Source: Cordylochernes scorpioides
Lineage: Eukaryota > Arthropoda > Arachnida > Pseudoscorpiones > Chernetidae
Assembly (NCBI GenBank): GCA_030710605.1
Contig: CP092864.1
Span: forward strand, 137,889,255-137,953,254
Direction: 5' to 3'
DNA length: 64,000 bases
The notes below the pieces were generated by a model. That model was not told the DNA's origin, ran no database searches, and worked only from the letters and a program-made list of their open reading frames with translations. The position numbers and the translations under genes were made by a program. Shown piece by piece: positions 17,231 to 60,988 of the stretch (position 1 is the stretch's first letter; the number at the start of each line of letters is the position of its first letter).

Positions 17231-18775
17231 AAGATTAGCATGGCTCCTGTGAAACCAATACAACTACCACAATAGGAGCGATACAGAGAAGATTAGCATG
17301 GCTCCTGTGAAACCAATACAACTACCACAATAGGAGCGATACAGAGAAGATTAGCATGGCTCCTGTGAAACCAATACAACTACCACAATAGGAGCGATAC
17401 AGAGAAGATTAGCATGGCTCCTGTGAAACCAATACAACTACCACAATAGGAGCGATACAGAGAAGATTAGCATGGCTCCTGTGAGACCAATACAACTACC
17501 ACAATAGGAGCGATACAGAGAAGATTAGCATGGCTCCTGTGAAACCAATACAACTACCACAATAGGAAGGATACAGAGAAGATTAGCATGGACCCTGTGA
17601 TACCAGTACAACTACCACAGTAGGAAGGATACAGAGAATATTAGCATGGACCCTGTGATACCAGTACAACTACCACAGTAGGAAGGATGCAGAGAAGATT
17701 AGCATGGACCCTGTGATACCAGTACAACTACCACAGTAGGAAGGATACAGAGAAGATTAGCATGGTCCCTGTGATACCAGCACAACTACTACAATAGGAA
17801 GGATACAAAGAAGATTAGCATGGATCCTGTGATACCAGTACAACTACCACAATAGGAAGGATACAGAGAAGATTAGTATGGCCCCTGTGATACCAGTACA
17901 ACTATTACAATAGGAAGGATACAGAGAAGATTAGTATGGCCCCTGTGATACCAGCACAACTACTACAATAGGAAGGATACAGAGAAGATTAGTATGGCCC
18001 CTGTGATACCAGTACAACTACTACAATAGGAAGGATACAGAGAAGATTAGTATGGCCCCTGTGATACCAGCACAACTACTACAATAGGAAGGATACAGAG
18101 AAGATTAGCATGGATCCTGTGATACCAGTACAACTACTACAATAGGAAGGATACAGAGAAGATTAGCATGGTCCCTGTGATACCAGCACAACTACTACAA
18201 TAGGAAGGATATAAAGAAGATTAGCATGGTCCCTGTGATGCCAGTACAACTACTACAATAGGAAGGATACAGAGAAGATTAGCATGACTTCTGTGATACC
18301 AGTTCGGCGGTACAACTGCTACAATAGGAAGGATACAAAGAAGATTAGTATGGCCCCTGTGATACCAGCACAACTACTACAATAGGAAGGATACAGAGAA
18401 GATTAGCATGGCCCCTGTGATACCAGCACAGCTACTGCAATAGGAAGGATACAGAGAAGATTAGCATGGATCCTGTGATACCAGTACAACTACTACAATA
18501 GGAAGGATACAGAGAAGATTAGCATGGTCCCTGTGATACCAGCACAACTACTACAATAGGAAGGATATAAAGAAGATTAGCATGGTCCCTGTGATGCCAG
18601 TACAACTACTACAATAGGAAGGATACAGAGAAGATTAGCATGACTTCTGTGATACCAGTTCGGCGGTACAACTGCTACAATAGGAAGGATACAAAGAAGA
18701 TTAGCATGGCCCCTGTGATACCAGTACAACTACTACAATAGGAAGGATACAGAGAAGATCAGCATGGCTCCTAAC
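17231..18775 (+). repeat. U6 snRNA-derived satellite array (58-bp monomer)
   Basis: About 26 tandem units with a 58-bp period (for example 17231 to 17289). Each unit carries the U6 snRNA central region: 'ataggarcgatacagagaag' then 'attagcatggcYcctg'. That includes the ACAGAGA box, which pairs with the 5' splice site in real U6. Two units (around 18300 and 18660) keep an extra TTCGGCGG, matching the U6 5' stem-loop, and are 66 bp long. Sequence changes along the array in blocks: ctcctgtgaaacc at the left, then ccctgtgatacc. The U6 3' half and any Pol III terminator are absent, so these are not functional snRNAs. Confidence 0.9.
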
Positions 18776-25500: not shown

Positions 25501-25579
25501 AAAATTGGTGAAACTGCTGGGAGGGTTCAATACTGATGAGCCATGCCCTCCCAATATTTTTCTCATCGCAGTAAGGACA

Positions 25580-26385
25580 GAGTAGGGAATTTGTTGACTT
25601 TGCTTAGAATTATTAATGAAACTGATTCCAATAATTATTAATTAAACATTATATTTATTGATTTACAAGAGAGAGAACAAAATATAAAAGGGAAACTAAT
25701 ATTAAACAAAGGAACTTTTTTTCTGTTTTGGTTAGCGCCTATTTACCTGTGAGCTTACACACACTCTGTGGAACAATTAATTAATATATATATATACAAC
25801 AGAATTTGTCTTATTTGAATATAAAAAGTCGCTCTTAGTAGTAGTATTTCTAAAATATAGATGACGCAATATTTCCTTATGATTAAATCATGCATTATCC
25901 GTTCCTCTTGATTTCTCACCATTACTTTTGAAGAGATAATTGTTTAAAACTATTTTAAAGGCGTAAGATTCTTTTTGATATTAAACAATTTCTACTGCTC
26001 TTACTGCCCTTAAAATAGTTTTGAATTTTAATAACAGATGGCGCGCTAGTGCATCAGAATATTGTTTCTTTGAGAGTCCTTAGCTATTTGATTGGTTTTT
26101 TGTTTTCCTCTCTGCCTTTTTGTCTTCTGTTGTCCTTAGAAAATCTCACTTTTCGAGAAAATTCTTTGTTCTCATGATGTATCCAAAAGGAAAACCTATT
26201 ATGAAAGGTTAATGACTATTTCTATATTTTTGCCTTTTACCAAACCCAGAATTTTCTTCTGAAAAATTAGATATTGAAACATACGTGTGGTTAGGCGGAT
26301 TTTAATTTTATTTATTTATTACAAAACACACACACTCTATATCTTATGTGCTTGAAAATAGAGCAATCCATATATTACAATATTT
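25580..26385. other. AT-rich non-coding stretch
   Basis: Holds a relic of the 'gatggcgcgctag' repeat at about 26035-26050 and otherwise A/T-rich sequence. No gene is seen. Confidence 0.5.
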
Positions 26386-26389
26386 AAAA

Positions 26390-27775
26390 ATGCCTATTTT
26401 GGATCATAAAGTTTTTATTTCCGATATTTCGTGAGGCAACTCGCCAAACTTCCTCTGGGAACAAAATCGCTTTTAGAGAAGCTCGTGTATCATTTCGCGA
26501 GTATATACAACCGCTATAAAATTTAAATATCTAGAATCTACAATATGCATGCCTCTATGAATATAATTATTAATAATAATATAATATGTAAAACATTAAT
26601 ATATAGAGAATTAAAAGTAAATATATACATTTAAAATAAACGAATTGAAAATCAGCAATTTGCCATATATATACATATATACGTGTATAGTAGTGGGCTA
26701 TGTGGTTTTAAATTGTAAGTATAGTTGAGGAATGTCTATTTTTCGGTTGATACTGTTTTTATCTTCTATTGAGCTCCAGTTTTATAGAAAAATTCTTGAA
26801 TGTTTATCCTTGATATTTTGATATACTATTTCTGTTGAGTCGAAATTTGGTATGTGGTCCTGTTTCAGTGCGTGGTCTACTTTATCAGCCTTTTCTTCCT
26901 TTCTGCCGATATAGTTAGGTCTTTCATAGAACGTTTCTCTATTGATGTAACCCGGATTCCTGTGAAGAGTCTCAGATGTCTTCATACATCTCTATCACTG
27001 CAGTCGCAATGTCCACTATCTTGGGCGTGTGAAGCTGCTGCTCAGGGTCCATGTGAATTTCTGTTGTTGTTTTCGGGTCCAATGAAAAGCCTCAGATGTC
27101 TCCATACATCTCTATCACTGCAGTTGCAATATCCTCTATCTTGGGTGTGTAAAGCTGCTTTTCTGAGTCCATGTCAATTTTCTGTCGTTGTTGTTGCCGT
27201 GTCCAATGAAGAGTCTCAGATGTCTCCATACATCTCTATCACTGCAGTTGCAATATCCACTATCTTGGGCGTGTAAAGCTCCTGCTCTGAGTCCATGTCA
27301 ATTTTCTGTCGTTGTTGTTGTCGTGTCCAATGAAGAGTCTCAGATGTCTCCATGCATCTCTATCACTGCAGTTGCAATATCCTCTATCTTGGGTGTGTAA
27401 AGCTGCTGCTCAGGGTCCATGTGAATTTCTGTTGTTGTTGTCGTGTCCAATGAAAAGCCTCAGATGTCTCCATACATCTCTATCACTGCAGTTGCAATAT
27501 CCTCTATCTTGGGCGTGTAAAGCTACTGCTCTGAGTCCATGTGAATTTTCTGTCGTTGTTGTTGTCGTGTCCAATGAAGAGGGTTCTTTCTTCCAGAGTT
27601 TTTCCTGTCTCTCCTATGTATGTAGCTGGGCAAGATCGGCACGGTATTCTGTAGATGAGGTTGGATTTTTGACTGTTGTTTGTGTTATGTTTGGTATCGG
27701 GATGGCGGAGAAGTGTTTTCAAGTTGGATGGTGTCTGGTATATGGTCTTGATGTTATATTTCTTGAGGGTTCTGC
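26390..27775 (-). mobile_element. Inverted 5'-truncated Penelope-like element copy
   Basis: Reverse-oriented copy of the element to its right. 26390-26960 carries the 3' untranslated region and the end of the GIY-YIG domain (DHALKQDHIPNFDS...). 27580-27775 carries SRTLKKYNIK through YIGETGKTLEERT. Between them a 124-bp minisatellite has been inserted, splitting the endonuclease domain. The copy ends abruptly at about 27775, where the forward copy begins, so the two are head to head. Confidence 0.85.
26960..27578. repeat. 124-bp minisatellite inside the inverted Penelope copy
   Basis: Five units around 'cagatgtctccatacatctc' and 'tatcctctatcttgggtgtg', spacing 120-124 bp. The left part (26876-27300) is nearly identical to 35091-35510, including the Penelope flank, so one is a duplicate of the other. 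Confidence 0.9.
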
Positions 27776-29286
27776 TGAACATAATCAAAGAGTTCAATAG
27801 ACAATTGAACAAAATAAAACGTAATTATAAATTGGATAGCAAAACATTCGACAAACTAAAAGCCGCAAACACTAACTTGCCTATATTTTATGGCCTACCA
27901 AAGGTACACAAGCAAAACAGCCCTCTACGCCCCATTGTATCCTACGCCGGCACCCCCATATACCCCTTGTCGAAATACCTTTCCTCGATAATTTCACCTT
28001 TTCAGAAAGAATTACCTCATACTATTCCCAACTCCACAGCAGCAATAGAAATAATTTCAAGAACTCAGATAACGGAGAACAGTCGCCTGGTCTCCTTTGA
28101 TGTTGAATCACTGTATACCTCAATCCCACATGACGAAGCTATTGCAGAAATTTCAGAATTCTTGAATGCCCACCCCAACCTACCATTGTCTATACCAAAG
28201 GAAGCCCTCATAGACTTACTCAAACTGTGCCTATCATTCAGCTACTTTAACTACAAGAATCAATACTTCAAACAGATCAAAGGCCTCCCGATGGGCAACC
28301 CAATATCTTCAGCTTTGGCAAACATTTTCATGAATAATATTGACCAATCAATAATAGACAATAAGCAGCTAAAAATAACATTCTGGAAGAGATATATTGA
28401 CGATATTCTTTGCATAACCGAAAACAACAATACAACAAGCATTCTGAATTTCTTGAACAATATAAAACCATTTCTCACATTTACACATGAAATAGAAGAA
28501 AAAAACTCTTTATCATTCTTAGATATAATTCTCACCAGAAACAGCTCTAAAATAGAAACAGGCATTTACCGTAAGAAAACTCACACAGGTGGTTACTTAA
28601 ATTTCAGCTCATTCGGTCCTATTAACCATAAAATATCTGTTATAAAAACCCTCTCAAAAAGAATATCTACTCATTGCTCCAATAATCTAGAAAAGGCACA
28701 ACAAGAAAGAACAATACTAATGAATGAATTACAAAGCAATAGTTATCCCACAGAATTTATCAAAAGACAATTCCACAGATCAACATTCATCCCTCCTTCC
28801 AATAGCCAATCTCATAAATTATACTGCACACTTCCGTACAGCTACGGCATTGAAAGAATCAGCAGAACCCTCAAGAAATATAACATCAAGACCATATACC
28901 AGACACCATCCAACTTGAAAATACTTCTCCGCCATCCCGATACCAAACATAACACAAACAACAGTCAAAAATCCAACCTCATCTACAGAATCCCGTGCCG
29001 ATCTTGCCCAGCTACATACATAGGAGAGACAGGAAAAACTCTGAAAGAAAGAACCAATCAACACCGGACAGCCCTTAAAAACTATAGCCCTCTTTCCCTT
29101 TTAGTAGACCACGCACTGAAACAGGACCACATACCAAATTTCGACTCAACAAAAATAGTATATCAAAATATCAAGGATAAACATTCAAGACTTTTTCTAG
29201 AAAGCTGGAGCTCAATAGAAGATAAAAACAGTATCAACCGAAAAATAGACATTCCTCAACTATACTTACAATTTAAAACCACATAG
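27676..29286 (+). CDS. Penelope-like reverse transcriptase with GIY-YIG endonuclease (5'-truncated)
   Basis: Retroelement protein that copies its own RNA into a nicked chromosomal target. The 536-codon frame is Penelope sequence from about residue 34 (27776); the first part belongs to the inverted neighbour, so the ATG is not authentic. Visible blocks: GLPKVHK...PLRPIVS (73-88), motif A FDVESLYTSIP (141-151), motif B GLPMGNPISSALANIF (203-218), catalytic YIDD (240-243), LSFLDIIL (279-286). The C-terminal GIY-YIG endonuclease has LIYRIPCRSC (435-444), TYIGETGKTLKERTNQH (447-463) and a likely catalytic E509. Catalytic residues are kept and the frame is unbroken. The N-terminal few hundred residues usual for the family are missing. 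Endonuclease-positive Penelope-like elements are known; the exact clade is uncertain. Confidence 0.9.
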   Translation: MFVLCLVSGWRRSVFKLDGVWYMVLMLYFLRVLLNIIKEFNRQLNKIKRNYKLDSKTFDKLKAANTNLPIFYGLPKVHKQNSPLRPIVSYAGTPIYPLSKYLSSIISPFQKELPHTIPNSTAAIEIISRTQITENSRLVSFDVESLYTSIPHDEAIAEISEFLNAHPNLPLSIPKEALIDLLKLCLSFSYFNYKNQYFKQIKGLPMGNPISSALANIFMNNIDQSIIDNKQLKITFWKRYIDDILCITENNNTTSILNFLNNIKPFLTFTHEIEEKNSLSFLDIILTRNSSKIETGIYRKKTHTGGYLNFSSFGPINHKISVIKTLSKRISTHCSNNLEKAQQERTILMNELQSNSYPTEFIKRQFHRSTFIPPSNSQSHKLYCTLPYSYGIERISRTLKKYNIKTIYQTPSNLKILLRHPDTKHNTNNSQKSNLIYRIPCRSCPATYIGETGKTLKERTNQHRTALKNYSPLSLLVDHALKQDHIPNFDSTKIVYQNIKDKHSRLFLESWSSIEDKNSINRKIDIPQLYLQFKTT

Positions 29287-29760
29287 CCCATTACTATACA
29301 CGTATATATGTATATATATGGCAAATTGCTGATTTTCAATTCGTTTATTTTAAATGTATATATTTACTTAATTCTCTATATATTAATGTTTTACATATTA
29401 TATTATTAAGTAGAACTGCTCTTCACTGAAGGTTAATAACGAGTTTTACAAAGTGGGAAGAGGAGCTTCTTTTTACGTAAAAAGAAGCTCCTCTTCCCAC
29501 TTTGTAAAACTCGTTATATTATATTATTATTAATAATTATATTCATAGAGGCATGCATATTGTAGATTCTAGATATTTAAATTTTATAGCGGTTGTATAT
29601 ACTCGCGAAATGATACACGAGCTTCTCTAAAGCGATTTTGTTCCCAGAGGAAGTTTGGCGAGTTGCCTCACGAAATATCGGAAATAAAAACTTTATGATC
29701 CAAAATAGGCATTTTTAAATATCTATATCTTATGTAGATATTTGCGTGTAAATATTCAAA
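29287..29760 (+). mobile_element. Penelope-like element 3' untranslated region
   Basis: It matches the reverse complement of 26390-26700 almost base for base ('ggcatgcatattgtagattc', 'ttgcctcacgaaatatcgg'), so it belongs to the element. The forward copy differs by an insertion at about 29410-29517 that includes a perfect palindrome. No hammerhead core was found in this region. Confidence 0.75.
29436..29517. repeat. Perfect 82-bp palindrome
   Basis: The two 41-base arms are exact reverse complements with no spacer; the centre is TTTTACGTAAAA at 29471-29482. It lies within an insertion of roughly 110 bp that is absent from the otherwise matching inverted copy at about 26580. Confidence 0.95.
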
Positions 29761-30540
29761 TGATTTTATAATAATAAATAGTTATTTAATTTTATAGTCC
29801 AGTTTTGTATTAAGATTATCTTCACTATTATGATCATTTAAATTCAAATTATAAAATTTGTAAAATGTTATTAATTTGTAGATAGAGAGAGAAAAAAAAA
29901 TTCTTTACTTCTAATACATCCTCAAGTTGATTATATATTTATAATTAATAACAATAAAAATTAACAACGTAACGTCTATTACATCGGCTTTTACACGTCA
30001 AATGATTTTATATACATATTTTCAATATATATATATATATGTTATATAAAAATATCATTTTATTTTAAATTATAATTTCATAGATTCAAATATTGTTAAA
30101 TCGACCGCCAGAGGTCATGCTTCCCCTTTAAAAACTCGTTGTTGTTCTTCCCCGATGGCCGGCTCCAATCTTTGTACATTATGTAAATAATTATTTACAT
30201 AATGTACAAAGATTATAATCTTTTGTTTTCCTTGTTCTATTCGCCTTAAGCCAGGCGGTACTTTAATCAAATTATGTTTATTATATAATCCTTAAGCTCA
30301 ATTAAAGAAATCTCCGATCAAAACCATTGTTATTTTTATTTCAAGATTTTAACCACGACTGCATCACCAATACCATATAATACTAAAGGGAACCAGCAAA
30401 TAACTGCATTACCATAATTCTCAAGATGATCAAAATTCAAGCATTAAATTTCATTTGTTTTTATAACATATATATGTGTGGGTGAGGGAAAAATAATAAA
30501 GGCCAGTTGTTAATATGTAAAAACAAATTATGCTTATCCA
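29760..30540. other. AT-rich non-coding stretch
   Basis: Mostly A/T. It has a (TA)n run near 30025-30045 and a small inverted repeat at 30173-30212 ('gtacattatgtaaataatta' and its complement). No gene is seen. Confidence 0.5.
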
Positions 30541-30544
30541 GACC

Positions 30545-30850
30545 ATTAACATGAGCGTTTTTTAGATGGCAGAGCGCCATCTAGTGGAACAGAAATCAAC
30601 TAAACATTGATTTAACCTGTTCTCTCGGATATTTAGCCAACCCATTTTCTTGATAAATAAAAAGGCCTGCATCACGCTGAGGATGACCAACAGCCAGAAA
30701 CGCGTTCATGGTTGGCTTTTATTGATTTATATATAAAAAAATGAGTTGGCTAAATATTAGAGGGAACAGGTTAAATCAATGTTTAGTTGATTTCTGTTCC
30801 ACCAGATGTCATCTAAAAACGCTTATGCTAGTGGTTATATATATATATAT
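30545..30850. mobile_element. Inverted pair of hammerhead SINE-like elements
   Basis: Left arm 'gatggcagagcgccatctag' with 'aaatcaactaaacattgatt'; right arm is the complement ending 'ccaccagatgtcatct'. Between the arms is a + strand hammerhead remnant. The right part of the left element was lost at the junction. Confidence 0.7.
30671..30714 (+). ncRNA. Hammerhead ribozyme motif, weakened stems
   Basis: CUGAGGA at 30677-30683 and GAAACGCGUU at 30697-30706. Stem II (UGACC/GCCA) is imperfect and stem I (CACG/CAUG) has a mismatch. The core is complete. Probably decayed. Confidence 0.5.
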
Positions 30851-30884
30851 TAAAAATATAGAAGGCATCTCCTGACCACAAGCA

Positions 30885-31100
30885 CATGTGCTTTTTAGAT
30901 GGCAGAGCGCCATCTAGTGGAGTAAAAATAAACTAAACGTTTATTTAGCTTACTCCGAGATATTTGGCCAACCCAATTTCTTGATAAATCAAGAAAAGCC
31001 ATCCACGAACGCGTTTCGCGCTGTTGGCGCTCGTCAGCGTGGAGAAGGCTGTAACCATTGCGACCAAAAAGATTTTATCTTTTATTTTTTTCTATTATTT
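30885..31100 (-). mobile_element. Hammerhead-bearing SINE-like element
   Basis: Starts at 'gatggcagagcgccatctag', continues through 'ttgataaatcaagaaaagcc' to the hammerhead, and ends in a 'ctgtaaccattgcgaccaaa' block, then a (TA)n run abutting the 319-bp units. Relatives: 32105-32395, 59345-59610, 63420-63620. Confidence 0.7.
31003..31042 (-). ncRNA. Hammerhead ribozyme motif (type I)
   Basis: On the - strand: stem I CCACG/CGUGG (five pairs), CUGACGA, stem II GCGC/GCGC closing CAACA, GAAA, short stem III AC/GU, cleavage after GUU. All core residues are present. Confidence 0.8.
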
Positions 31101-31120
31101 TTTCATATATATATATATAT

Positions 31121-31588
31121 ATAGATGGAAAATTTGCCGGGAGGAAATTAATCCATAGAAGCAATGGGCGCCTCTCCCGTCAAAATAAACGTCAAAAACT
31201 GACGCCATCTATTGACCGTCGCCGCAACTAGCGGCCTCGGGTCGGTGACAAAGCCACAACACCAGCTTTGGCAAACTGAGAAGCGTCCACCTAGAGACCA
31301 TGGTTTCGGGCTAATGGCCCTCGTCAGTCTAGGGCGGACTTTATTCCATGAGATCCACACGGGATCTAATGGAATCTTCACAATCTACCAAAGAGGTGTT
31401 TTGCTGGCAATGTGGCTGGGCCAAATCTATGGCTAGAATATAGATGGAAAATTTGCCGGGAGGAAATTAATCCATAGAAGCAATGGGCGCCTCTCCCGTC
31501 AAAATAAACGTCAAAAACTGACGCCATCTATTGACCGTCGCCGCAACTAGCGGCCTCGGGTCGGTGACAAAGCCACAACACCAGCTTG
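31121..31588 (-). mobile_element. Retrozyme-like 319-bp unit, ~1.5 copies, - orientation
   Basis: The unit start 'atagatggaaaatttgccgg' recurs at 31121 and 31440, period 319. One complete hammerhead lies at 31285-31339. No protein is encoded. The left end abuts a (TA)n tract. At about 31588 the sequence flips into the opposite orientation. Confidence 0.85.
31285..31339 (-). ncRNA. Hammerhead ribozyme, complete type I fold
   Basis: On the - strand: outer stem I GUCC/GGAC, inner stem I CCUAGA/UCUAGG with a small internal loop, CUGACGA, stem II GGGC/GCCC with loop CAUUA, GAAA, stem III ACC/GGU with loop AU, cleavage after GGUC. Every invariant core base is present, so it is expected to be cleavage-competent. 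Confidence 0.88.
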
Positions 31589-31598
31589 TGGCACAACA

Positions 31599-31641
31599 CT
31601 GACGAGGGCCATTAGCCCGAAACCATGGTCTCTAGGTGGAC
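31599..31641 (+). ncRNA. Hammerhead ribozyme motif lacking its 5' stem I strand
   Basis: Core CUGACGA, stem II, GAAA and stem III are intact, but the sequence before the core is 'ggcacaaca' instead of CCCTAGA because the inversion junction lies there. Stem I cannot close in cis. Confidence 0.7.
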
Positions 31642-31905
31642 GCTTCTCAGTTTGCCAAAGCTGGTGTTGTGGCTTTGTCACCGACCCGAGGCCGCTAGTT
31701 GCGGCGACGGTCAATAGATGGCGTCAGTTTTTGACGTTTATTTTGACGGGAGAGGCGCCCATTGCTTCTATGGATTAATTTCCTCCCGGCAAATTTTCCA
31801 TCTATATTCTAGCCATAGATTTGGCCCAGCCACATTGCCAGCAAAACACCTCTTTGGTAGATTGTGAAGATTCCATTAGATCCCGTGTGGATCTCATGGA
31901 ATAAA

Positions 31906-31960
31906 GTCCGCCCTAGACTGACGAGGGCCATTAGCCCGAAACCATGGTCTCTAGGTGGAC
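31906..31960 (+). ncRNA. Hammerhead ribozyme, complete type I fold
   Basis: CTGACGA 31918-31924; stem II 31925-31928/31934-31937; GAAA 31938-31941; stem III 31941-31943/31946-31948; predicted cleavage after C31949. Stem I pairs 31912-31917 with 31950-31955 and 31906-31909 with 31957-31960. All core positions are conserved. Confidence 0.9.
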
Positions 31961-32104
31961 GCTTCTCAGTTTGCCAAAGCTGGTGTTGTGGCTTTGTCAC
32001 CGACCCGAGGCCGCTAGTTGCGGCGACGGTCAATAGATGGCGTCAGTTTTTGACGTTTATTTTGACGGGAGAGGCGCCCATTGCTTCTATATATATATAT
32101 ATAT

Positions 32105-32395
32105 TAAAAATGGCATATCCTGACCTGGAGCACATGAGCTTTACAGAAGGCAAAGCGCCATCTGGTGGAACAGAAATCAACTAAACATTGATTTAGCCTG
32201 TTCCCTGATATTTGGCCAACCCAATTTCTTGATAGATCAAGAAAAGCCATCCACGAACGCGTTTCGCGCTTTTGGCGCTCGTCAGCGTGGAGTAGGCTGA
32301 ACCACTGCGACCAAAAGATATTTTTTGGTCCCAATGGCTTCCCAAAAACCAAGAAATGGGTATTTAAGGCCAAACTTGCGTAAATATATATGATA
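32105..32395 (-). mobile_element. Hammerhead-bearing SINE-like element
   Basis: Contains the 'gcgccatctggtggaacaga' block, 'aatcaactaaacattgattt', the 'gatcaagaaaagccatcca' block, a hammerhead, and a tail with 'aaaaaccaagaaatgggtat'. That tail also ends the copy at 63610, so it probably marks one end of the element. Confidence 0.75.
32251..32290 (-). ncRNA. Hammerhead ribozyme motif (type I)
   Basis: On the - strand: stem I CCACG/CGUGG, CUGACGA, stem II GCGC/GCGC with loop CAAAA, GAAA, minimal stem III AC/GU, cleavage after GUU. Core intact. Confidence 0.82.
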
Positions 32396-32397
32396 CA

Positions 32398-32565
32398 TTA
32401 GCGCGCCATCTGTCATGATAATTCGAAACTATTATAGACGCGAATGCTTCTTTTTAAAATAAACAATTTCTACTGCCCTTACTGCAATGAAAAATTAATG
32501 GGAGGGCCTGGCTCATCAGTGTTAAACCCTCCCAACGGTTTCGGCAGTTTAATATATCTCTATAA
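32398..32565. repeat. GATGAGCC-hairpin dispersed repeat
   Basis: Family running from 'tagcgcgccatctgt' and 'gaaactattatagacgcg' through 'tttctactgcccttactgca' to GGGAGGGCCTGGCTCATCAGTG and a GGTTTCG block. GGGAGGG and CCCTCCC can pair around the CTGATGAG. Other copies: 1262-1365, 25505-25580, 34021-34275, 36800-36940, 37430-37510, 40710-40785, 54745-54830. Confidence 0.7.
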
Positions 32566-32660
32566 ATCATTTCTAATATTAGAAAGTGAAAGAGAGTGGT
32601 TCACAACATTTATGTTGAGTAATTTATGGTGATTCGTCACTATTGTAGACCTACATAACA

Positions 32661-33135
32661 AGATGGAAAATTTGCCGGGAGGAAATTAATCCATGGAAGC
32701 AATGGTCGCCTCTCCCGTCAAAATAAACGTCAGAATCTGACGCCATCTATTGACCGTCGCCGCAACTAGCGGCATCGGGTCGGTGACAAAGCCACAACAC
32801 CAACTTTGGCAAACTGATAAGCGTTCACCTAGAGATCATGGTTTCGGGCTAATGGCCCTCGTCAGTCTAGGGCGGACTTTATTCCATGAGATCCACACGG
32901 GATCTAATGGAATCCTCACAATCTACCAAAGAGGTGTTTTGCTGGCAATGTGGCTGGACCAAATCTATTGGCAAAACATAGATGGAAAATTTGGCGGGAG
33001 GAAATTAATCCATGGAAGCAATGGGCGCCTCTCCCGTCAAAATAAACGTCAGAATCTGACGCCATCTATAGATGGTCGACGGTCAATAGATGGCGTCAGA
33101 TTCTGACGTTTATTTTGACGGGAGAGGCGAACATT
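32661..33135 (-). mobile_element. Retrozyme-like 319-bp unit with terminal fold-back
   Basis: 'agatggaaaatttg' recurs at 32661 and 32980, period 319. The second unit stops after 'gacgccatctat' and is followed by an inverted segment ('atagatggcgtcagattctg'), giving a near-perfect palindrome at about 33030-33130. The copy is about 95 percent like the 31-kb copies by eye. Confidence 0.8.
32823..32877 (-). ncRNA. Hammerhead ribozyme motif with stem III mismatch
   Basis: CUGACGA, stem II GGGC/GCCC and GAAA are intact and inner stem I is intact. The cleavage-side sequence is GAUC instead of GGUC, so one of three stem III pairs is lost, and an outer stem I pair becomes G-U. Weakened. Confidence 0.7.
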
Positions 33136-33579
33136 GCTTTCATCTACATAACTGTAATGGTCACATGTGTTGATATTTGGTGACACAAACAGCCGTTTTT
33201 AGCTGAAGAATTCCACTCCCACACATCTCCTTCTGTCACTGCATACCAAAATGTATGTAAACTTCACTCGCTGAAAATATATTTTGAAGATATTTCAGAT
33301 ATGTCAGACAACTTTGGCGAATGTTAAAAAAAACCAATATAAGGTAGCCGGTTGAGTTTTTTTTTTTTTTTTGAAGGGGGGAAAGAAATTAAATATCGGA
33401 CGGTTATCGACTCACATGGGAGGTAAACTTGAAGGATGCCAGCGGCCATACAACCAGAATGGTAGAACGTGAATTGATAGAAAAACGTTTCGTAACCGAT
33501 TTTTAAAGTTTACATTCTATATACTTTTTTTTTATTTTAAAAATTCCTGAAAATTTTCAAGCTCACACATATACTTTGA
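33136..33579. other. Non-coding stretch
   Basis: Unassigned sequence with a poly-T run near 33357-33372. No gene or clear repeat family is recognised. Confidence 0.4.
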
Positions 33580-34020: not shown

Positions 34021-34275
34021 TTTCGAAACTATTATAAACGCGTATGATTATTTTATAAATGTAAACAATTTCTACTGCCCTTACTACAATGGAAAAATTA
34101 ATGGGCCTGGCTCATCAGTGATGAATCCTCCAAGCAGTTTCGCCAGTTTAAGCCAGGTCCTCCCATTAATTTTTCCATTGCAGTAAGGGCAGTAGAAATT
34201 TTTTAAATTTTAAAAGAATCATACGCGTCTATAATAGTTTCGAATTTTCATAACAGATGGCGCGCTAATGTATGA
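34021..34275. repeat. Inverted pair of GATGAGCC-hairpin repeats
   Basis: Left arm 'cgaaactattataaacgcgt' to 'atgggcctggctcatcagtg'; right arm 'cattgcagtaagggcagtag' to 'gatggcgcgctaat'. The pair makes a 250-bp imperfect palindrome. Confidence 0.7.
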
Positions 34276-35090: not shown

Positions 35091-35770
35091 TACTTTATCA
35101 GCCTTTTCTTCCTTTCTGCCGATATAGTTAGGTCTTTCATAGAACGTTTCTCTATTGATGTAACCCGGATTCCTGTGAAGAGTCTCAGATGTCTTCATAC
35201 ATCTCTATCACTGCAGTCGCAATGTCCACTATCTTGGGCGTGTGAAGCTGCTGCTCAGGGTCCATGTGAATTTCTGTTGTTGTTTTCGGGTCCAATGAAA
35301 AGCCTCAGATGTCTCCATACATCTCTATCACTGCAGTTGCAATATCCTCTATCTTGGGTGTGTAAAGCTACTTTTCTGAGTCCATGTCAATTTTCTGTCG
35401 TTGTTGTTGCCGTGTCCAATGAAGAGTCTCAGATGTCTCCATACATCTCTATCACTGCAGTTGCAATATCCACTATCTTGGGCGTGTAAAGCTCCTGCTC
35501 TGAGTCCATGTGAATTTTCTGTCGTTGTTGTTGTCGTGTCCAATGAAGAGTCTCAGATGTCTCCATGCATCTTTATCACTGCAGTTGCAATATCCTCTAT
35601 CTTGGGCGTGTAAAGCTACTGCTCTGAGTCCATGTGAATTTTCTGTCGTTGTTGTTGTCGTGTCCAATGAAGAGTCTCAGATGTCTCCATGCATCTCTAT
35701 CACTGCAGTTGCAATATCCTCTATCTTGGGTGTGTAAAGCTGCTTTTCTGGGTCCATGTCAATTTTCTGC
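35091..35770. repeat. Duplicate of the Penelope/124-bp minisatellite block
   Basis: 35091-35180 is the reverse-oriented Penelope endonuclease segment found at 26876-26965. Five or more 124-bp units follow (starts 35186, 35306, 35430, 35554, 35678). The first three units match those at 27 kb almost exactly. Confidence 0.85.
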
Positions 35771-36563: not shown

Positions 36564-36944
36564 TAATAGATAATACAAAAATACATAGAGAATTTCAGAG
36601 AGTGGCATTTCTTTCTATTGAATTAGTCTTCAAGAGTTTCCACTTGGAGCGTCGAATCGTATTTAAGTCTCTCCAACCTGGGGCCGTCTGTAAGAAGATT
36701 TCTCGAGAACCTCTTAAAGGATTTCTCAAACTGTCCTAAATGTCACTGGGTCGAGATTTATTTCTGTAATGTATATCTCAAACACACACACATATATGTG
36801 AAAATTCGAAACTATTATCGACGCGTTTGATTCTTTTAAAAATTAAACAATTTCTACTTCCCTTACTGCAATGGAATAATTAAAGGGAGGGCCTGGCTCA
36901 TCAGTGGTGAACCCTCCCAGCGGTTTCGCCAGTTTAATCTATCA

Positions 36945-37312
36945 GATGGCGTCAGGTTTTGACGTTTATTTTGACGGTAGAGTCGCCCTATGCTTCTATG
37001 TATCAATTTCCTCCCGGCAAATTTTCCACCTATATTCTAGCCATAGATTTGGCCCAGCCAACTTGTCAGCAAAACACCTCTTTGGTAGATTGTGAAGATT
37101 CCATTAGATCCCGTGTGGATCTCATGGAATAAAGTCTGCCCTAGACTGACAAGGGCCATTAGCCCGAAACCATGGTCTCTAGGTGGACGCTTCTCAGTTT
37201 GCCAAAGCTGGTGTTGTGGCTTTGTCACCGACCCGAGGCCGCTAATTGCGGCGACGGTCAATAGATGGCGTCAGGTTTTGACGTTTATTTTGACGGGAGA
37301 GGCGCCCTATGC
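36945..37312 (+). mobile_element. Retrozyme-like 319-bp unit, ~1.15 copies
   Basis: 'gatggcgtcagg' recurs at 36945 and 37264, exactly 319 bp apart. It ends 'ctatgcttc' plus (TA)n. It carries one mutated hammerhead. The left border fuses to a GATGAGCC-hairpin repeat (36800-36943). Confidence 0.85.
37134..37188 (+). ncRNA. Inactivated hammerhead ribozyme (G8 to A)
   Basis: Collinear with 31906-31960 and with all stems present, but the core reads CUGACAA: position 37151, equivalent to the catalytic G8, is A. G8 acts as general acid in hammerhead cleavage, so this copy should be inactive. Confidence 0.8.
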
Positions 37313-38390
37313 TTCTATATATATATATACTATTTATTTAGAAGAATATATATATTTTATTTTTTATATTCCTGTACTTGGAATAATGTATTGTTTTTTA
37401 AAATCGTGTGCATTTTAAAATGGAGTTTATTTTTTAGCTTGGCTCATCAGTGGTGAACCCTACCAGCAGTTTCGTCAAATTAATCTACCAGACCACTTCT
37501 TTAGAGCTCTAATACTGTATTAGATCATTCTGATTTTATAGGCTACACTGAAGAGTGGAATCTTAGAAAAATGGTATTTAAGTAAACTATGGACATAAAC
37601 TTTTAAGACATTAAAATTGCATTTAAATATTTGCATCGAGCAATCCTCTTCCGCAAACAATAAGTGTTTCCTTCCAGTCATTACGATATAGCCTGATATA
37701 GTTTCATCCAGATAGATCAAATATTGTAGAATTCTAAAAGAGTCAAACAAAGCCGTAACCTAATGCTTCTTCTGGCATTCTAAATAGCTCTAGCAAACCA
37801 GACCTAAAGATCCAATTCCCCAGAGATGTTTGGTTGAGCTCCCTGTGATGCAAACAGTCATTGGACCCACTATAGTCACAAAGAACCATCCTTGGGATGT
37901 TCCCAGAATAAAAATGGTTGAAAGATTCAGAAGAAGAACAACATCTATTTAAAGCAGAAGACAAAGAAGTGTGAGAGCAGAAGAAACCAGGGCAATCAGG
38001 GCAACGAACTCTAGCTAGACGATATCGTCAAGGACGCCAAGAGAAGACAGATGGGCTCGTAAAAAAAAAAAACGGGAGAATGACCTTACAAGACACACGG
38101 AAGCTGACTCTAAAATAAACAACTTTTTCTAATCTTAAGCCTTGGCAAACGATACGATAGATATTTCTGGAGTCTAGTTGGCAACAGTACTTTGGACGAA
38201 GACATTGTCTGACACCATTGTCATGGACAAGAAAATGTCCCATGGCCTTGCTATCCTCAGCCAAAACAACCGCACTATTCTCAGAAGCTTTTGTCTTCAC
38301 TTTTTTTTCTTTGTCGTTGCTCGCCTTGATGTTCCACTTTGGTATAGAAGTCTTTGTCTGATGGCTTTGACTGTCACTTCCGGCAACTGG
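37313..38390. other. Mixed unassigned sequence
   Basis: 37430-37510 is a GATGAGCC repeat. 37500-37680 is the reverse of 1075-1210. The remainder is unassigned, including two short opposing open stretches at 38028-38486 without recognisable domains. Confidence 0.4.
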
Positions 38391-40459: not shown

Positions 40460-42060
40460 AACAACAACAACAAACTAAACCTTTACCTCATGTAAAACTG
40501 ACTTTACTATGTGTATATAGCTATGGATACTTTCATATGTAAATATTACTATATAAATAATGATATGTAGTTAATAATATGGTCTGAATAAAGAGTTTTA
40601 AAACTTAGCTTGACATAGGTTCAAGTTCATGTACGAGGTCACTAAAGGAACCCATAGAGTTTACTGTATTCAGCATAAAAAAAATGGCTTTCAAAATTCT
40701 TTTCAATTGGCGAAACCGCTGAGAGTGTTCACCACTGATGAGCCAAGCCCTCTCATTCAATAACTTTTATCATTTCAGTAAGGTCTAGAGAAAAAATCTG
40801 ATGATATTTTTGAAATTAATTGTTATAAATTTTATCGATAGAGAGCAAATCGAATTTATAAAAATCATTTTGCCATAGAAATAGATCAATTGATATAAGA
40901 ATCAATACAAAAATATTCCTAATATAAATTAACAAAAAGTGAAAATATAACCATAGTTCAAGATAAAATAGTGAAAAGAGCGTTTAAAAACAACAAAATA
41001 TTTCACACAATGAGTTTCTTTCTATTTTAAAATGCTAGCTTTCAAGCGATAATCGCTTTTCAACAGGCTTAATAAAAACATCGACTATATATATGTTCTG
41101 AAAATAGAGCACAATCCATATTTAAATATTTAGATAATAAAAAGGCAAATATTAGATTGAATAAAAGATTTATTTGCCAATACAAAAATGTAATGATTAA
41201 GGTTGGCATTCAGCCAAACGAAATATTGGCAAATAAATATATTTTTAAATCCAATATATACATTTTTTATTACCTATATATATGTGTGTACACAGTTCTT
41301 GTAAGATATAGTCGATAATTTTAATTAAGCCTTTTGAAGAGCGATTATCACTTGAAAGCTTTCATTATAAAATAAAAAGAAACTCATTATGAGAAAAAAA
41401 TTATAATTTTTATAACCTACTTTTATTTTAAATATCCAATTATATAGGTAAATAAAAACAAAATAAAATTGTTTTTATAAATTCAATTGTAATTTTCCAT
41501 GTCCATTTCCCAATACGTTGAAATCAAACGAACAAATAAGAAGCAGAAGAAGTTAACTGCTGGCAAGGCAGTGTTGCCCAACCGTTCACAGACAAAGAAA
41601 GCTCAACGTCCTCGGAAATATAAATAGCTGGCACCACGTACTGTAAAAAACATTAGTAAAATAGAAGGGGTCGTTGCTGAGTCGTCTGCTTGCGTCTTCT
41701 TACAGTTGATTATTTCTTTTGCTCACTCTCTAATTAGCTAGGCCTGACAGCTGTGCTGATCGTGGGAAACCTCTCACTTATTCTTTCTTTGTTTTTTAAA
41801 AATGATATTCACACACAAATTAAAATTTAGTTTTTTAAATTGTTATTTTTTCTTGTAGGTGAATGTACTACTTTGTTGAATTCATCACTCCGTCTCTCTG
41901 TGATGTCAATTTATATTTGTGATGATAAAATTGATTTAATAAAATCAACAAACAATCCAGGGCCAGGTTTCGTTAGCTATTTTTTTAAATATTATATAGT
42001 ATTCTTAGGCCTATATAACCTCCAACAGGAGAACTAGAATTATGACTTCCATCTAACTAT
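40460..42060. other. AT-rich region with small hairpin repeats
   Basis: A GATGAGCC repeat lies at 40710-40785. Hairpin-plus-GAAA motifs lie at 41035-41065, 41190-41240 and 41335-41365 ('agcgattatcgctt'; 'ggttggc...gccaaacgaaat'), arranged as inverted copies around 41100-41300. No gene is seen; short frames are compositional. Confidence 0.5.
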
Positions 42061-46705: not shown

Positions 46706-47060
46706 AAGGCCACCTCTCCCGTCAAAATAGACACTAAAACTAGAAGCCGGTGGACGAGTGGTTAAAACCCTCAATTCCCAACAGCCATGAACCGGGATCG
46801 AATCCTGTATTGTACACTTTTTTTGTGTGTGAAGAAACTGTTCATATTGTTCATTTTGTAAATAACATGAGTCACTTTTTTTTTTTGACACGTTCTTTAG
46901 ATATTTTAAAAAATATTTTAAATCGCGTGAGAACGCCATTTCAACCTCAGAATAATTTTTAACACCTTGCCAAATGCTTTAATTTTTATTTGTTCCTGAT
47001 GAAGACAAAAGATTTTGTCGAAATGTCGAACAATAAATATATTTACTGGCCGAGGTGTCT
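46706..47060 (+). mobile_element. tRNA-headed SINE with hammerhead-like tail
   Basis: The head at 46744-46805 has a tRNA-like GCCGGTGGACGAGTGGTTAA (A box) and GGGATCGAATCC (B box). The 3' part has 'ttgccaaatgctttaatttt' and CCTGATGAAGAC...GTCGAAATGTCG at 46997-47029, also present near 58670-58720. The 38 bp before the head ('cctctcccgtcaaaataga') match the 319-bp retrozyme unit. Confidence 0.6.
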
Positions 47061-48945: not shown

Positions 48946-50364
48946 CACTGCGTGACATTGAAAATGGAACACCAAGAAATAGTGGCCAGAAAATTATGCA
49001 AATATCAGGGTAGACGCGCCTAACCGAGTTATGCAAATGATGTAAAATGCGCAGCTCTCGTGCGCACATGGAGTAAGATATAAGGAAAGGAACTTGCAGA
49101 AAGGACAGTATTCGTGTCGTTATTTCTTCAAGGAAAATCATTGTAGAAATTTTGTTCTTGTGTCAAAAGACACGTGTAATAACAGAGAATGCCAGGTCAT
49201 CGTAAACGGAGGCAGTTCAAGCAGACAGACGCTTTTACGAGGGGCATGGTGATCGGACTGAAAAGGGCAGGTTGGTCCATACGTCAAATCGCAGCTGATA
49301 CACACCTTGGTGCGTCCACGGTGCACCGACTGTGGAGAAGATGGTTGGAACATGGAAATGTGGCAATTTATAGGAATGTTGGTGCAACCAGAGTGACGTC
49401 AGCACGTGTGGATCGGCGTATCCTTCGACGAGCAGTGGCGGCCCCACAAGCCACTTGTACCGCCATCCTGCAACATGTGCAAGACACCCTAGATCATTCC
49501 ATCTCGACCAGAACCATTTCCCGTCGATTGGTTGCTAATGGCTTGCACTCATGCCGTCCGCTAAGAAGACTGCCATTGACCCCACCGAATAGGCGCCAAC
49601 GTTTGGAATGGGGCCGGGCTAGATCGACGTGGATGACGGAATGGCACAGGGTCGTGTTCTCAGATGATTCGCGTTTCTGCTTGTCCAGTGATAGTCGCCG
49701 TGTAAGCGTGTGGCGTCGACGTGGAGAAAGGTCCAATCCGGCAGCAATTGTGGAACGCCCCACCGTGCGACAACGTGGAATCATGGTTTGGGGCGCAATC
49801 GCGTATGATTCCAGGTCACCTTTACTTCGTATTCAGGGCACTATGACGGCCCAACGATACGTTGATGATGTGCTGCGACCGGTGACACTCCCCTACCTTC
49901 AGGGGGTACCCAATGCCCTTTATCAGCAGGATAACGCCCGACCGCACACTGCTCGCATTAGCCAACAAGCTCTGCAAGATGTACAGATGCTTCCCTGGCC
50001 ACCGTACTCTCCTGATCTCTCACCAATCGAGCACGTCTGGGACATCATTGGACGCCGTTTGCATGCCTTGCCACAGCCGCGTTCAGAAGACGAACTGTGG
50101 CAAATGGTTGAGAGGGAATGGAGAGCCATCCCTCAGGACGCCATCCGTACTCTGATTGACTCTCTACCTAGACGTGTTGCTGCGTGCATCGCCGTCCGCG
50201 GTGGTCATACTTGCTACTAAGCCGACGCCGTTCTCGCTCTGTATTATGACTATCATTTTGAAATAAAGATCACTTATTGTTCGTCCCTGTCTCTCTCTGT
50301 CTGCCGAGTTTCATCACTTTCTGGCCACTATTTCTTGGTGTTCCATTTTCAATGTCACGCAGTG
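48946..50364 (+). mobile_element. Intact Tc1-like DNA transposon (1419 bp)
   Basis: Perfect 47-bp terminal inverted repeats (48946-48992 and 50318-50364) beginning CACTGCGTGACATTG, flanked by TA at both sides as expected for Tc1/mariner insertion. One uninterrupted transposase gene fills the centre. TIR identity plus an intact gene imply very recent insertion. Confidence 0.95.
49189..50220 (+). CDS. Tc1-like DDE transposase
   Basis: 343 residues, the usual length for Tc1 transposases. Acts in the nucleus, binding the element's inverted repeats and cutting and pasting the DNA at TA. Residues about 15-55 and 75-120 form the paired-like helix-turn-helix DNA-binding half (GWSIRQIAADTHLGASTVHR; STRTISRRL). 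The catalytic half has FSDDSRF (D159), GGI-like RGIMVWGAI (196-204), LYQQDNARPHTA (D248) and SPDLSPIEHVWDIIGRRL (E281). All three acidic residues are present. The D248-E281 gap is 32 residues, two fewer than classical Tc1 DD34E, in line with a related group abundant in arthropods. The start ATG follows the left TIR by 196 bp. Stop TAA; AATAAA at 50262 could end the transcript inside the element. No breaks. Confidence 0.95.
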   Translation: MPGHRKRRQFKQTDAFTRGMVIGLKRAGWSIRQIAADTHLGASTVHRLWRRWLEHGNVAIYRNVGATRVTSARVDRRILRRAVAAPQATCTAILQHVQDTLDHSISTRTISRRLVANGLHSCRPLRRLPLTPPNRRQRLEWGRARSTWMTEWHRVVFSDDSRFCLSSDSRRVSVWRRRGERSNPAAIVERPTVRQRGIMVWGAIAYDSRSPLLRIQGTMTAQRYVDDVLRPVTLPYLQGVPNALYQQDNARPHTARISQQALQDVQMLPWPPYSPDLSPIEHVWDIIGRRLHALPQPRSEDELWQMVEREWRAIPQDAIRTLIDSLPRRVAACIAVRGGHTCY

Positions 50365-53228: not shown

Positions 53229-53580
53229 TTGTTCAGCGGTACAGCTACTACAATAGGAACGATACAAAGAAGATTTGCATGGCCCCTGTGATACCAGTTC
53301 GGCGGTACAACTACTGCAATAGGAACGACACAGGGAGGATTAGCATGGCCCCTGTGATACCAGTTCGGCGGTACAACTACTGCAATAGGAAAGATACAGA
53401 GAAGATTAGCATGGCTCCTGTGATACCAGTTCGTCGGAAAAACTCCTACAATAGGAACGATACAGAGAAGATTAGCAAAGCCCCTGGGCACCATTGGATA
53501 GTGGGCTACCTAGATCGAAGTCTTTACGCCTGTGGCCCCTGGGCAAGGATGACACGCAAAATCGTGAAGCGTTCATTGTT
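53229..53580 (+). repeat. U6 snRNA-derived array ending in a U6 3' half
   Basis: Four units of about 66 bp, each with TTCGGCGGTAC (U6 5' stem-loop region), 'aataggaacgatacagagaa' and 'gattagcatggcccctgtg'. After the last unit and a 55-bp unrelated piece, the sequence resumes as CCCCTGGGCAAGGATGACAC followed by GCAAAATCGTGAAGCGTTC (53536-53573), matching the U6 internal stem-loop and 3' end with few changes. No U-run terminator follows ('attgttgag'), so it is a U6 pseudogene with its 5' two-thirds repeated. The units sit 53 bp upstream of a coding exon. Confidence 0.9.
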
Positions 53581-57059: not shown

Positions 57060-57365
57060 AAGTCCATTTACATCAGAATGATATCCATGCACCAAAAGAA
57101 GCACCTCTCCCTTTAATTATACATCAGAACGATGACACAATGCATCACCTTAGTAAAAGAACGTCACTAATGATGATACAGAATGAGCCCCAACACCAGT
57201 TTTGGAAAATTCAGACAAAAAACTAACAACCTGTATATCATTGTTTCGAGCTATGACCCTCATCAGTACAGGGGCAGCTTCGATTTCATAACTTACTACG
57301 AGAGGGGAGGTATATAATCGGTCGAATTTCCTAAACAGGTGTTTTTTTACTTATCCTTTAAAACT
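57060..57365 (-). mobile_element. Divergent retrozyme-like monomer with hammerhead
   Basis: Gene-less repeat whose layout parallels the 319-bp unit: 'cacctctcccttt', 'caacaccagttttggaaaa', hammerhead, then 'aaacaggtgttttttta'. Related fragments lie at 1500-1670, 7850-7935 and 57750-57830. Confidence 0.65.
57230..57272 (-). ncRNA. Hammerhead ribozyme motif
   Basis: On the - strand: stem I CCUGUA/UACAGG (six perfect pairs), CUGAUGA, stem II GGGU/GCUC with wobble pairs, GAAA. Stem III is weak (one pair certain) before an AUA cleavage triplet. The core is intact; activity is doubtful. Confidence 0.65.
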
Positions 57366-57745: not shown

Positions 57746-58215
57746 TACGTAAGGATGATATTCATGCACATAGAGAGACACCTCTCCCTTCAATGATACA
57801 TCAGTACAATGTCACTGTGCATTAACCTAGTAATTATTCTAGAATTACCCAAATACGATTTTTTTTAATAATTAACAAAAGCTAATTACGCACGCGTCGG
57901 AAGCTTCTCCGGAACATATCATGCTCAGAACTGACAATAGAGGACTTATTTTCCAGGCCTATAACTACCATCGCAAAATTGGAGAGGAGTGGACTTCAGG
58001 AATTGGTTTAACATAGGAGATAAGCACTACCACCACCACTGATAAGCCAGGACTATATAGTAATACTTGAAATACAATAGTGCGGAAGCTTCTCCGGAAC
58101 ATATCATGCTCAGAACTGACAATAGAGGACCTATTTTCCAGGCCTATAACTACCATCGCAAAATTGGAGAGGAGTGGACTTCAGGAATTGGTTTAACCAT
58201 GGAGATAAGCACCAC

Positions 58216-58259
58216 CACCACGTACGTATTTCAGTCTGTTAGCCCTCATCAGCGTGGTG
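58216..58259 (-). ncRNA. Hammerhead ribozyme motif
   Basis: On the - strand: stem I CACCACG/CGUGGUG (seven perfect pairs), CUGAUGA, a weak stem II (GGGC.../GACU), GAAA, stem III AU-AC/GUA-like before the cleavage position. The core is intact; stem II is damaged. Confidence 0.68.
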
Positions 58260-58401
58260 CAAACTGTACCTCAATGATCAATAAATTCTTTCATGACTGA
58301 AAATAGAGGACCTATTTTCCAGGCCTATAACTACCATCGCAAAATTGGAGAGGAGTGGACTTCAGGAATTGGTTTAACAATGGAGATAAGCACCACCACC
58401 A

Positions 58402-58440
58402 CCACGTACGCATTTCAGTCTGTTAGCCCTCATCAGCGTG
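58402..58440 (-). ncRNA. Hammerhead ribozyme motif, second tandem copy
   Basis: Same core as 58216-58259 in the next 181-bp unit. Stem I is shortened to CACG/CGUG and stem III differs (GCAUUU). Probably weaker. Confidence 0.6.
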
Positions 58441-58494
58441 TTGCAAACTGTACCTCAATGATCAATGAATGCAATCATCAAGAAGATAAAGGCT

Positions 58495-60720: not shown

Positions 60721-60870
60721 TATCAATCGTTATGGAAATAAGGTTGTTATGTAGAAACTCTCAATATCAAATATTGAGGTAGATAAATCAATAATGTAAC
60801 TCTACTGTTTATGTAAATTTTCGTTTTCAGTGATATAAGTTCTTTTTTTTTTTTTTTTAAAGGTAATAGC

Positions 60871-60988
60871 CTACAGCACCCGGTGTTCCCAGGTGGTCAC
60901 CCTCCCAAGTACTGACCGGGCCCGTCATTGCTTAACTTCGGTGATCGGACGAGAACCGGTGTTTTCAATGTGGTATGGCCGTAGGCAC
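60871..60988 (-). rRNA. 5S ribosomal RNA sequence
   Basis: The - strand reads GCCTACGGCCATACCAC at the 5' end and ends GGGTGCTGTAGGC, so the terminal stem pairs. The internal promoter includes AAGTTAAGCA (A box) and CTTGGGAGGGTGACC (C-box region, with GAG where metazoan 5S genes usually have GAT). Length is 118, close to the normal 119-120. Downstream, where a Pol III gene should have a T run, is TATTACCTTT followed by about 19 A. This suggests a retroposed copy or a 5S-headed SINE rather than a normal gene. Confidence 0.85.

Follow-up and report, generated by a model that had tools for sequence, protein, structure and literature searches.

The non-LTR retrozymes of metazoans carry a type I hammerhead ribozyme in non-coding units of 170-400 nt, which occur as dimers or longer arrays (Cervera & de la Pena 2020, PMC7229834; this and the other papers identified by accession are cited here in excerpt). 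They are further described as present in many copies, with a strongly self-paired monomer, duplications of more than 4 bp, and a Penelope-like element (PLE) in the same genome. Based on this co-occurrence, on shared hammerheads, and on tandem copies, PLEs have been proposed to mobilize retrozymes (PMC7229834, PMC7761336).

A typical Penelope insert contains inverted pLTRs, and a published example shows a 9-bp duplication (PMC3846280). A 31-bp tail is optional and located on one pLTR, and the commonest order observed is head-to-head. The same paper reports that an unrelated gene was moved in trans by a PLE through the pLTRs; cross-mobilization between PLE types was not seen in the part cited. 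A purified PLE enzyme was shown in vitro to cut both DNA strands and to extend them, with a preference for AT-rich DNA; it initiates at two neighboring sites inside the RNA, and the sequence between these sites forms the tail (PMC11167929). In the cited part of that work on the anole PLE enzyme, the start sites did not differ between strands, and hammerhead mutants were inserted equally well.

A different hammerhead, the non-circularly permuted type-SGC, was first described from environmental RNA (Eckert et al. 2023, PMC10085705). According to the excerpted text, it was found in the genome of no known organism, and its stems I and II are typically, though not invariably, joined by a 3-nt linker.

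Here, we followed up a 64-kb window (the whole stretch of DNA that was analyzed) on contig C2 of the 2.62-Gb Cordylochernes scorpioides genome, in which a first-pass annotation had pointed out retrozyme-like 319-bp units as the best candidate there for a little-described RNA system. These units, referred to as family A, share all the above-mentioned features of the metazoan retrozymes, and their assignment to retrozyme-like elements that carry type I hammerheads is right. The term little-described is too strong for A, as its class is already known from PMC7229834, and better suits a neighboring family (E); what is new for A is its insertion footprint. We consider it probable that family A is a non-autonomous retrozyme, inserted at AT-rich targets by a Penelope-like enzyme that primes on both strands.

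Family A in the window

The spacing of exactly 319 bp was confirmed, as the unit starts 31121 and 31440 lie 319 bp apart and the units are 100% identical across the 104 nt they have in common. The inverted arms (31155-31587 and 31658-32090) measure 433 nt each, are 100% complementary, and enclose a spacer of 70 nt. When the unit is numbered from the first base 3' of the cleavage site, the 3' ends of the left and right arrays correspond to unit positions 177 and 141, respectively. Both arrays are longer than one unit (~1.5) and are oriented head-to-head (Table 1). The flanking (TA)n, of which 17 nt recur on the other side, is a target duplication that stays ambiguous within such a simple repeat.

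Table 1. Coordinates of mobile-element and ribozyme features in the 64-kb window
Feature	Position	Strand	Remarks
Family E head-to-head insertion	945-1405		13-bp duplication AATTTATAGTACT; left end ~28-37 nt longer
Family E type-SGC hammerhead, all helices	1252-1324	+	Predicted cleavage after C1257
Other E copies with type-SGC blocks	25502-25580, 34025-34247, 40702-40792
PLE, head-to-head	26350-29721		Left end ~30 nt longer than the other
PLE open frame	27673-29286	+	RVT_1 E 3.7e-16; GIY-YIG E 1.3e-4, just above cut-off
Small head-to-head palindrome inside PLE	29409-29515		Left end ~29 nt longer (by eye)
Family B head-to-head copy	30513-30838		Decayed hammerhead at 30677(+)
Family B copy, type I hammerhead	30840-31076	-	CUGA at 31037
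(TA)n flank of A, left	31106-31122		17 nt recur at 32088-32104
Family A left array	31119-31593	-	475 nt; unit positions 177 back to 23, wraps
Complete type I hammerhead, A	31285-31339	-	Predicted cleavage after C31296
Family A right array	31598-32090	+	493 nt; unit positions 287 to 141, wraps
Incomplete A hammerhead	31599-31640	+	CUGA at 31599; stem I 5' strand lost at junction
Complete type I hammerhead, A	31906-31960	+	Predicted cleavage after C31949
Family B copy, type I hammerhead	32088-32324	-	CUGA at 32285
Family E copy, 5'-truncated	32420-32556	-	G and C blocks
Second A insertion, head-to-head	32660-33143		- 173 to 72, + 75 to 137
Family E copy, 5'-truncated	36802-36943	-	Joined to A at 36944
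Third A copy	36944-37318	+	1.18 units, 95% match, end at 141
Family E copy with S, G, and C blocks	37437-37663	-	One stem II mismatch, interaction helix lost
Minimal PLE-type hammerhead	46985-47035	+	Stem I GUUC/GAAC, by eye

Two further A copies in the window were absent from the first-pass annotation. The second insertion matches A at 92-96% in pieces, has 3' ends at 173 and 137, and is surrounded by a 9-bp duplication (CTACATAAC, at 32651-32659 and 33144-33152); its hammerhead (32823-32875, minus strand) has one mismatch in stem III. In the third copy, the G of the CUGACGA core (G8) is replaced by A, and this copy meets a family E copy head-to-head. The E(-)/A(+) joint at 36943/36944 unites two different ribozyme elements between TA-rich flanks that show no clear duplication, as though a different RNA had served at each of the two nicks in one target. 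At 57186-57345, a diverged relative of A carries a hammerhead-like motif (CUGA at 57266, minus strand).

The 319-nt monomer has a GC content of 49.5%, which is inside the limit in the text of PMC7229834 (<50%) and outside the one in its Figure 1 legend (<45%). The longest run of codons starting with methionine is 49 amino acids (three units scanned). The monomer folds at -131.1 versus -91.8 kcal/mol (z -8.1), with hammerhead stems I and II included in the minimum free energy structure. Several hallmarks of retrozymes were thus found in silico, namely, a hammerhead core with three stems, tandem units in the range of ~170-400 bp, low GC, no coding capacity, and duplications of more than 4 bp. 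Unlike the retrozymes of PMC7229834, A resides in an arachnid, and its sampled copies are mostly head-to-head pairs whose 3' ends fall into two classes, an arrangement that is not described in the excerpted part of that paper.

Hammerheads of family A

A strict type I descriptor (stem I of at least 4, stem II of at least 3, and stem III of at least 2 bp, core complete) gave five matches in the window compared with a mean of 0.1 (maximum 1) in 40 dinucleotide shuffles. Two belong to family A (CUGA at 31327- and 31918+) and three to another family (5902-, 31037-, and 32285-). As had been stated beforehand, both A motifs contain every core base and are fully paired in stems I (6/6), II (4/4), and III (3/3). 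The Rfam search suggested by the first-pass annotation did not retrieve the motif: among the families of Rfam 15, none of the hammerheads matched it even at E<=10 (3.6 kb and 111 nt queried).

Each array of the inverted pair at 31119-32090 contains one complete hammerhead, and none of the three A loci in the window (0 of 3) has two complete hammerheads on the same strand. It therefore appears that none of these loci could by itself release a 319-nt monomer through two monomeric cleavages, so the release of such an RNA from this pair, as envisaged earlier, is not supported. Furthermore, as the arms are fully inverted, a transcript across both of them could fold into a 433-bp hairpin. The short palindromic end of stem III (ACCAUGGU) suggests dimeric action. 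This end and the unit size are shared with the hammerhead repeats of newt and axolotl (~330 bp, as given in PMC7229834), whose integration signature is not described in the part of that paper cited; stem III of A is nominally 3 bp long.

Census and insertion footprint

The genome census that had been proposed revealed 21,399 matches to the A core (10,638 + 10,761 on the two strands, up to two mismatches allowed), a count of motifs rather than of elements; the reversed-pattern control gave 0 + 0. The exact A and E cores had 0 matches in viral contigs. A DNA search with the A unit likewise gave 0 matches, which says nothing about rarity, as such a search skips very common words. A sample of 48 loci (30 census loci minus two duplicates, plus 20 further), picked by the exact hammerhead core and all on contig C1, was inspected, and the sampled copies are separate insertions. 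Head-to-head composites make up 33/48 loci, the other 15 being single-armed or irregular. The large inverted pair noted by the first-pass annotation is thus real, with its 433-nt arms, but not peculiar to the locus, and its recurrence in the sample points to Penelope-type integration.

Two classes of 3' ends were found near positions 177 and 141, ~36 nt apart. With long ends defined as unit positions 168-182 and short ends as 130-152, the 33 composites comprise 28 long/short, one short/short, no long/long, and four other combinations; the rule of one long and one short end is broken in five (L012, L022, L068, L071, and L072). Adjacent arms in the window and 76 loci are oriented -+ in 36 cases, -- in three, ++ in one, and +- in none. 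The inner breakpoints differ between arms. Arms longer than 319 nt were counted in 23 of 87 cases, and many arms are shorter than two units; arms beyond one unit indicate a circular or multimeric template, circles as such not being implied. Duplications of at least 10 nt flank 20/33 composites compared with 12.8% of 1,056 mismatched flank pairs; the AT-rich flanks leave the A duplications ambiguous. AT-rich target duplications recur among the sampled loci, which bears out the earlier suggestion that the (TA)n marks the insertion site.

These data bear on three explanations that do without a Penelope-type enzyme. It is barely credible that A is ordinary satellite DNA spread by recombination, with a vestigial ribozyme. 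Tandem A units do exist, and three same-strand pairs at a distance of 319 nt occur among the 100 core matches listed; against these three, pairs within 1 kb among the same 100 matches are oriented -/+ in nine cases and +/- in none, and the copies inspected are dispersed single insertions flanked by duplications. The number of cores, the separate insertions, and the duplications also speak against DNA-level satellite spread alone, one of the outcomes that the first-pass annotation had named as its refutation. Inverted ends and target duplications would also fit a DNA transposon of the fold-back or MITE-like kind, bounded by long terminal inverted repeats and carrying a hammerhead by coincidence. 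This is very improbable, given that the ends of A are not identical terminal inverted ends but lie ~36 nt apart, that the inner breakpoints vary, that copies exceed one unit with a 319-nt period, and that E and A are united in one composite.

The third explanation is that a LINE moves the retrozyme and that the inverted pairs arise from twin priming. Twin priming by LINEs yields inverted 5' parts together with target duplications, and it leaves the RNA 3' end at one outer end only. In A, both outer ends fall within the 3' end classes, and two distinct sites are used once each in 28/33 composites, so that a LINE is an improbable vehicle, even if both LINEs and PLEs are left possible in the excerpted text of PMC7229834.

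Penelope-like element and other palindromes in the window

A PLE copy with an anatomy similar to that of an A composite is located 1.4 kb from the A pair and is flanked by a 14-bp duplication (TCTATATCTTATGT, at 26336-26349 and 29722-29735). Its open frame matches Cordylochernes scorpioides proteins with up to 95% identity. The first ~35 codons of the frame run backwards through the inverted left arm, which places the coding start near 27778 and marks the PLE as 5'-truncated. The left PLE arm also contains 5.1 copies of a 124-bp repeat (26963-27581), and a similar array is present at 35176-35769. The minimal hammerhead at 46985-47035 is one that we take, from its look, to be of the PLE family; the protein of the window's PLE had no match there.

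The small palindrome inside the PLE has its own 14-bp duplication (ATATTATATTATTA, at 29395-29408 and 29516-29529). The PLE, this palindrome, the A insertions at 31119-32090 and 32660-33143, and the E insertion at 945-1405 each combine a duplication with one end that is ~28-37 nt longer. Among the 43 inverted pairs scanned in the window, seven have flank matches of at least 9 nt. Clean duplications among these are those of the PLE (14 nt), of A at 32660-33143 (9 nt), and of E at 945-1405 (13 nt); the remaining four, from repeated sequence at 34-36 kb, were left uncounted. In a control with 359 mismatched flank pairs, matches of at least 9 nt were found in 11 and of at least 12 nt in none.

Family A resembles PLEs (PMC11167929, PMC3846280) in its head-to-head inverted copies, AT-rich targets, duplications of ~9-14 bp, and optional tail of ~30-36 nt at one end. 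It differs from them in that its hammerhead has all three stems and that the unit lacks an RT or GIY-YIG open frame, for which reason A is not itself a PLE.

Family B and the motif AGATGGCG

Copies of a further family, B, lie close to A on both sides. Their hammerheads were matched by the Rfam 15 model Hammerhead_HH9 (30988-31053-, E 4.5e-4, and 32236-32301-, E 3.8e-5), both below the gathering score. In the sequences used for the A orientations, adjacent B arms are oriented -+ in four cases and +-, --, and ++ in one case each, so the strict orientation of A and E was not seen.

The motif AGATGGCG, which may be a start-codon context or a CTCF-like core, occurs in 26 places in the window compared with 0.84 in mononucleotide shuffles. 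Most of these places (for example, 31210-, 30915-, 974-, and 26036+) are close to a 3' end of family A, B, or E, which have no other relationship, and a shared reverse transcription signal is among its possible readings. As the motif common to A, B, and E is missing from the window's PLE, this PLE may not be the one concerned.

A stem-loop common to the reverse transcription start sites of PLE, A, B, and E seemed promising on inspection and was then set aside, as pairs enclosing the short site are no commoner than at 2,000 random sites. The A RNA is stably folded at its start sites, where the anole PLE has a stem-loop, yet the enclosing pairs at the short site stay at this random level.

Probable insertion by a Penelope-like enzyme

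The features of Penelope-type integration found in A are head-to-head arms, a tail at one end, and an AT-rich duplication. Under the proposed mechanism, the 319-nt non-coding RNA unit with its type I hammerhead would be available as transcripts of more than one unit or as circles formed by cleavage and ligation in vivo. A Penelope-like RT/endonuclease would nick both strands of an AT-rich target, and the exposed 3' ends would prime reverse transcription inside the A RNA, with one strand starting near 177 and its counterpart near 141. Both cDNAs would extend 5'-ward, occasionally beyond one full unit, and would be joined head-to-head, leaving the target duplication behind. We infer the cleavage and circles, the two-sided priming, and the PLE identity of the enzyme from the anatomy of the insertions rather than from biochemistry, and in this sense the footprint of A supports the proposal that PLEs mobilize retrozymes. 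The cited part of PMC11167929, where the start site is alike on both strands, does not explain the rule of one long and one short end. In a search of literature on retrozymes with target-primed insertion or, since 2021, with PLEs, no such footprint was found in titles and abstract openings.

An alternative keeps the PLE-type enzyme but derives the inverted arm from a single RNA or cDNA, through self-priming or a template switch, instead of from priming at both target strands; the authors of PMC3846280 read their head-to-head PLE palindromes in this way, as self-priming on an antisense template. We regard this as a possible though rather unlikely route for A. The outer ends are separate start sites, 141 and 177, each adjoining the duplication; the inner breakpoints of the two arms are unlike; the composite at 36943/36944 unites two different elements; and extension on both strands was demonstrated in vitro (PMC11167929).

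It is also conceivable, if a shade more doubtful, that families A, B, and E represent PLEs with internal deletions (pLTR plus tail) that depend on their parents for movement, a view partly compatible with insertion of a retrozyme by a Penelope-like enzyme. The end geometry is the same as that of PLEs, and AGATGGCG as a possible start-codon context recurs in all three families. However, no PLE coding match was found in the 319-nt and ~370-nt units, 11 PLE protein queries matched in only 2/30 E loci and 3/50 A loci, and the starts of eight annotated PLE proteins had no counterpart by eye.

The A footprint offers a direct, countable test of which enzyme inserts retrozymes, and it favors PLEs. Thousands of small, easily scored copies would display the outcome of Penelope-type insertion at both target strands.

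Family E and its predicted permuted hammerhead

Family E has a unit of ~370 nt, is larger than A, and is found beside it. From its sequence, the predicted E ribozyme has its blocks in S-G-C order and shares a four-helix plan with the type-SGC hammerhead (PMC10085705, as excerpted). The blocks follow as GCGGUC/UGGU, UUGGC-GAA-ACCGC, and ACCA-CUGAUGA-GCCAA, and are complemented by the interaction GGGAGGG/CCCUCCC. Unlike the type-SGC described in that paper, E is encoded in the genome of an animal, and 8 nt (AGAUUAAA) instead of the typical 3 nt link its stems I and II. An SGC descriptor (CUGANGA, GAAA, NUH) gave a full match at 1298+, a relaxed match at 37450-, and none in 200 shuffles.

Covariation was assessed in eight E copies drawn from 16 matched stretches, where seven pairs were changed on both sides; no shuffle of 500 scored as high, and slid controls gave 1-4. 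In a wider set of 18 distinct copies (19 rows, obtained by BLAST with coverage from S to C required, decayed copies included, and one trimmed at 36943), 10 pairs were changed on both sides, 9/500 shuffles reached 10, and slid controls gave 4-7. The signal is weaker in the wider set, yet above the slid controls. Stem I showed no change on both sides in the smaller set and one cell in the wider set.

The S and G blocks as a pattern have 71,013 matches genome-wide (35,441 + 35,572; control 0), again motifs rather than elements. Thirty E loci were picked by this pattern, two insertions being counted twice (L042/L043 and L051/L052); since S and G are fixed by that selection, only the C block is free to vary in them. 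The core and stems I-III are kept in 21 of these loci, the interaction helix as well in 18, and CUGANGA is lost in eight. The tandem spacing is 368-371 nt in four loci and ~467 nt in L033 (hand arithmetic).

Among 57 E arms in the window and the 48 A loci, 35 reach position 120 or beyond; 17 of these end at 132-156 and 18 at 174-184, with the reference stopping at 184. Adjacent E arm pairs in the same sequences are head-to-head in 13/13 cases. Based on the two end groups and the head-to-head arm pairs, E appears to move like A. Long/short ends were seen in L038, L040, L041, L046, L048, and L051/L052; exceptions are L036, L047, and L059 (long/long-like) and L032 (short/short). The reference is AT-rich and the copies are older, and the long/short pairing is noisier in E than in A.

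Taken together, we think it probable, with less assurance than for A by itself, that E is a very large retrozyme family with a type-SGC ribozyme, that E and A are both trans-mobilized by a Penelope-like enzyme, and that the rule of one long and one short end reflects the action of this enzyme in vivo, the two nicks of a target being primed on a circular or multimeric RNA at two different, fixed sites separated by ~30-36 nt. E would then place the permuted hammerhead in an animal host and in a mobile element, with very many natural variants on which structure and activity could be studied. In the one literature collection searched, no later study of type-SGC was found except work on structure software, and no paper linking hammerhead ribozymes with pseudoscorpions was found.

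One reading of E was discarded. The 5' ends of four copies in the window had suggested a footprint of cleavage in vivo; only 4/32 starts (window, L001-L030, and L061-L080) fall at +7..+11 and the spread is broad, with 10/32 clustering at +64..+73, just past the ribozyme. Another reading, in which E represents the pLTR of an autonomous PLE, was not supported by the PLE matches in only 2/30 of its loci, though it is still conceivable.

Other features of the window

A 185-bp tandem repeat of ~3 copies (57921-58472) contains hammerhead-like motifs at 58436- and 58252- with a mismatch in stem II. Tandem arrays with units of 58-66 bp at 17231-18772 (26 copies) and 53231-53486 overlap matches to U6 snRNA, and a 5S rRNA gene-like sequence (115 bits) is present at 60868-60986. 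Moreover, an open frame at 49183-50217 encodes transposase domains of the Tc1/mariner type.
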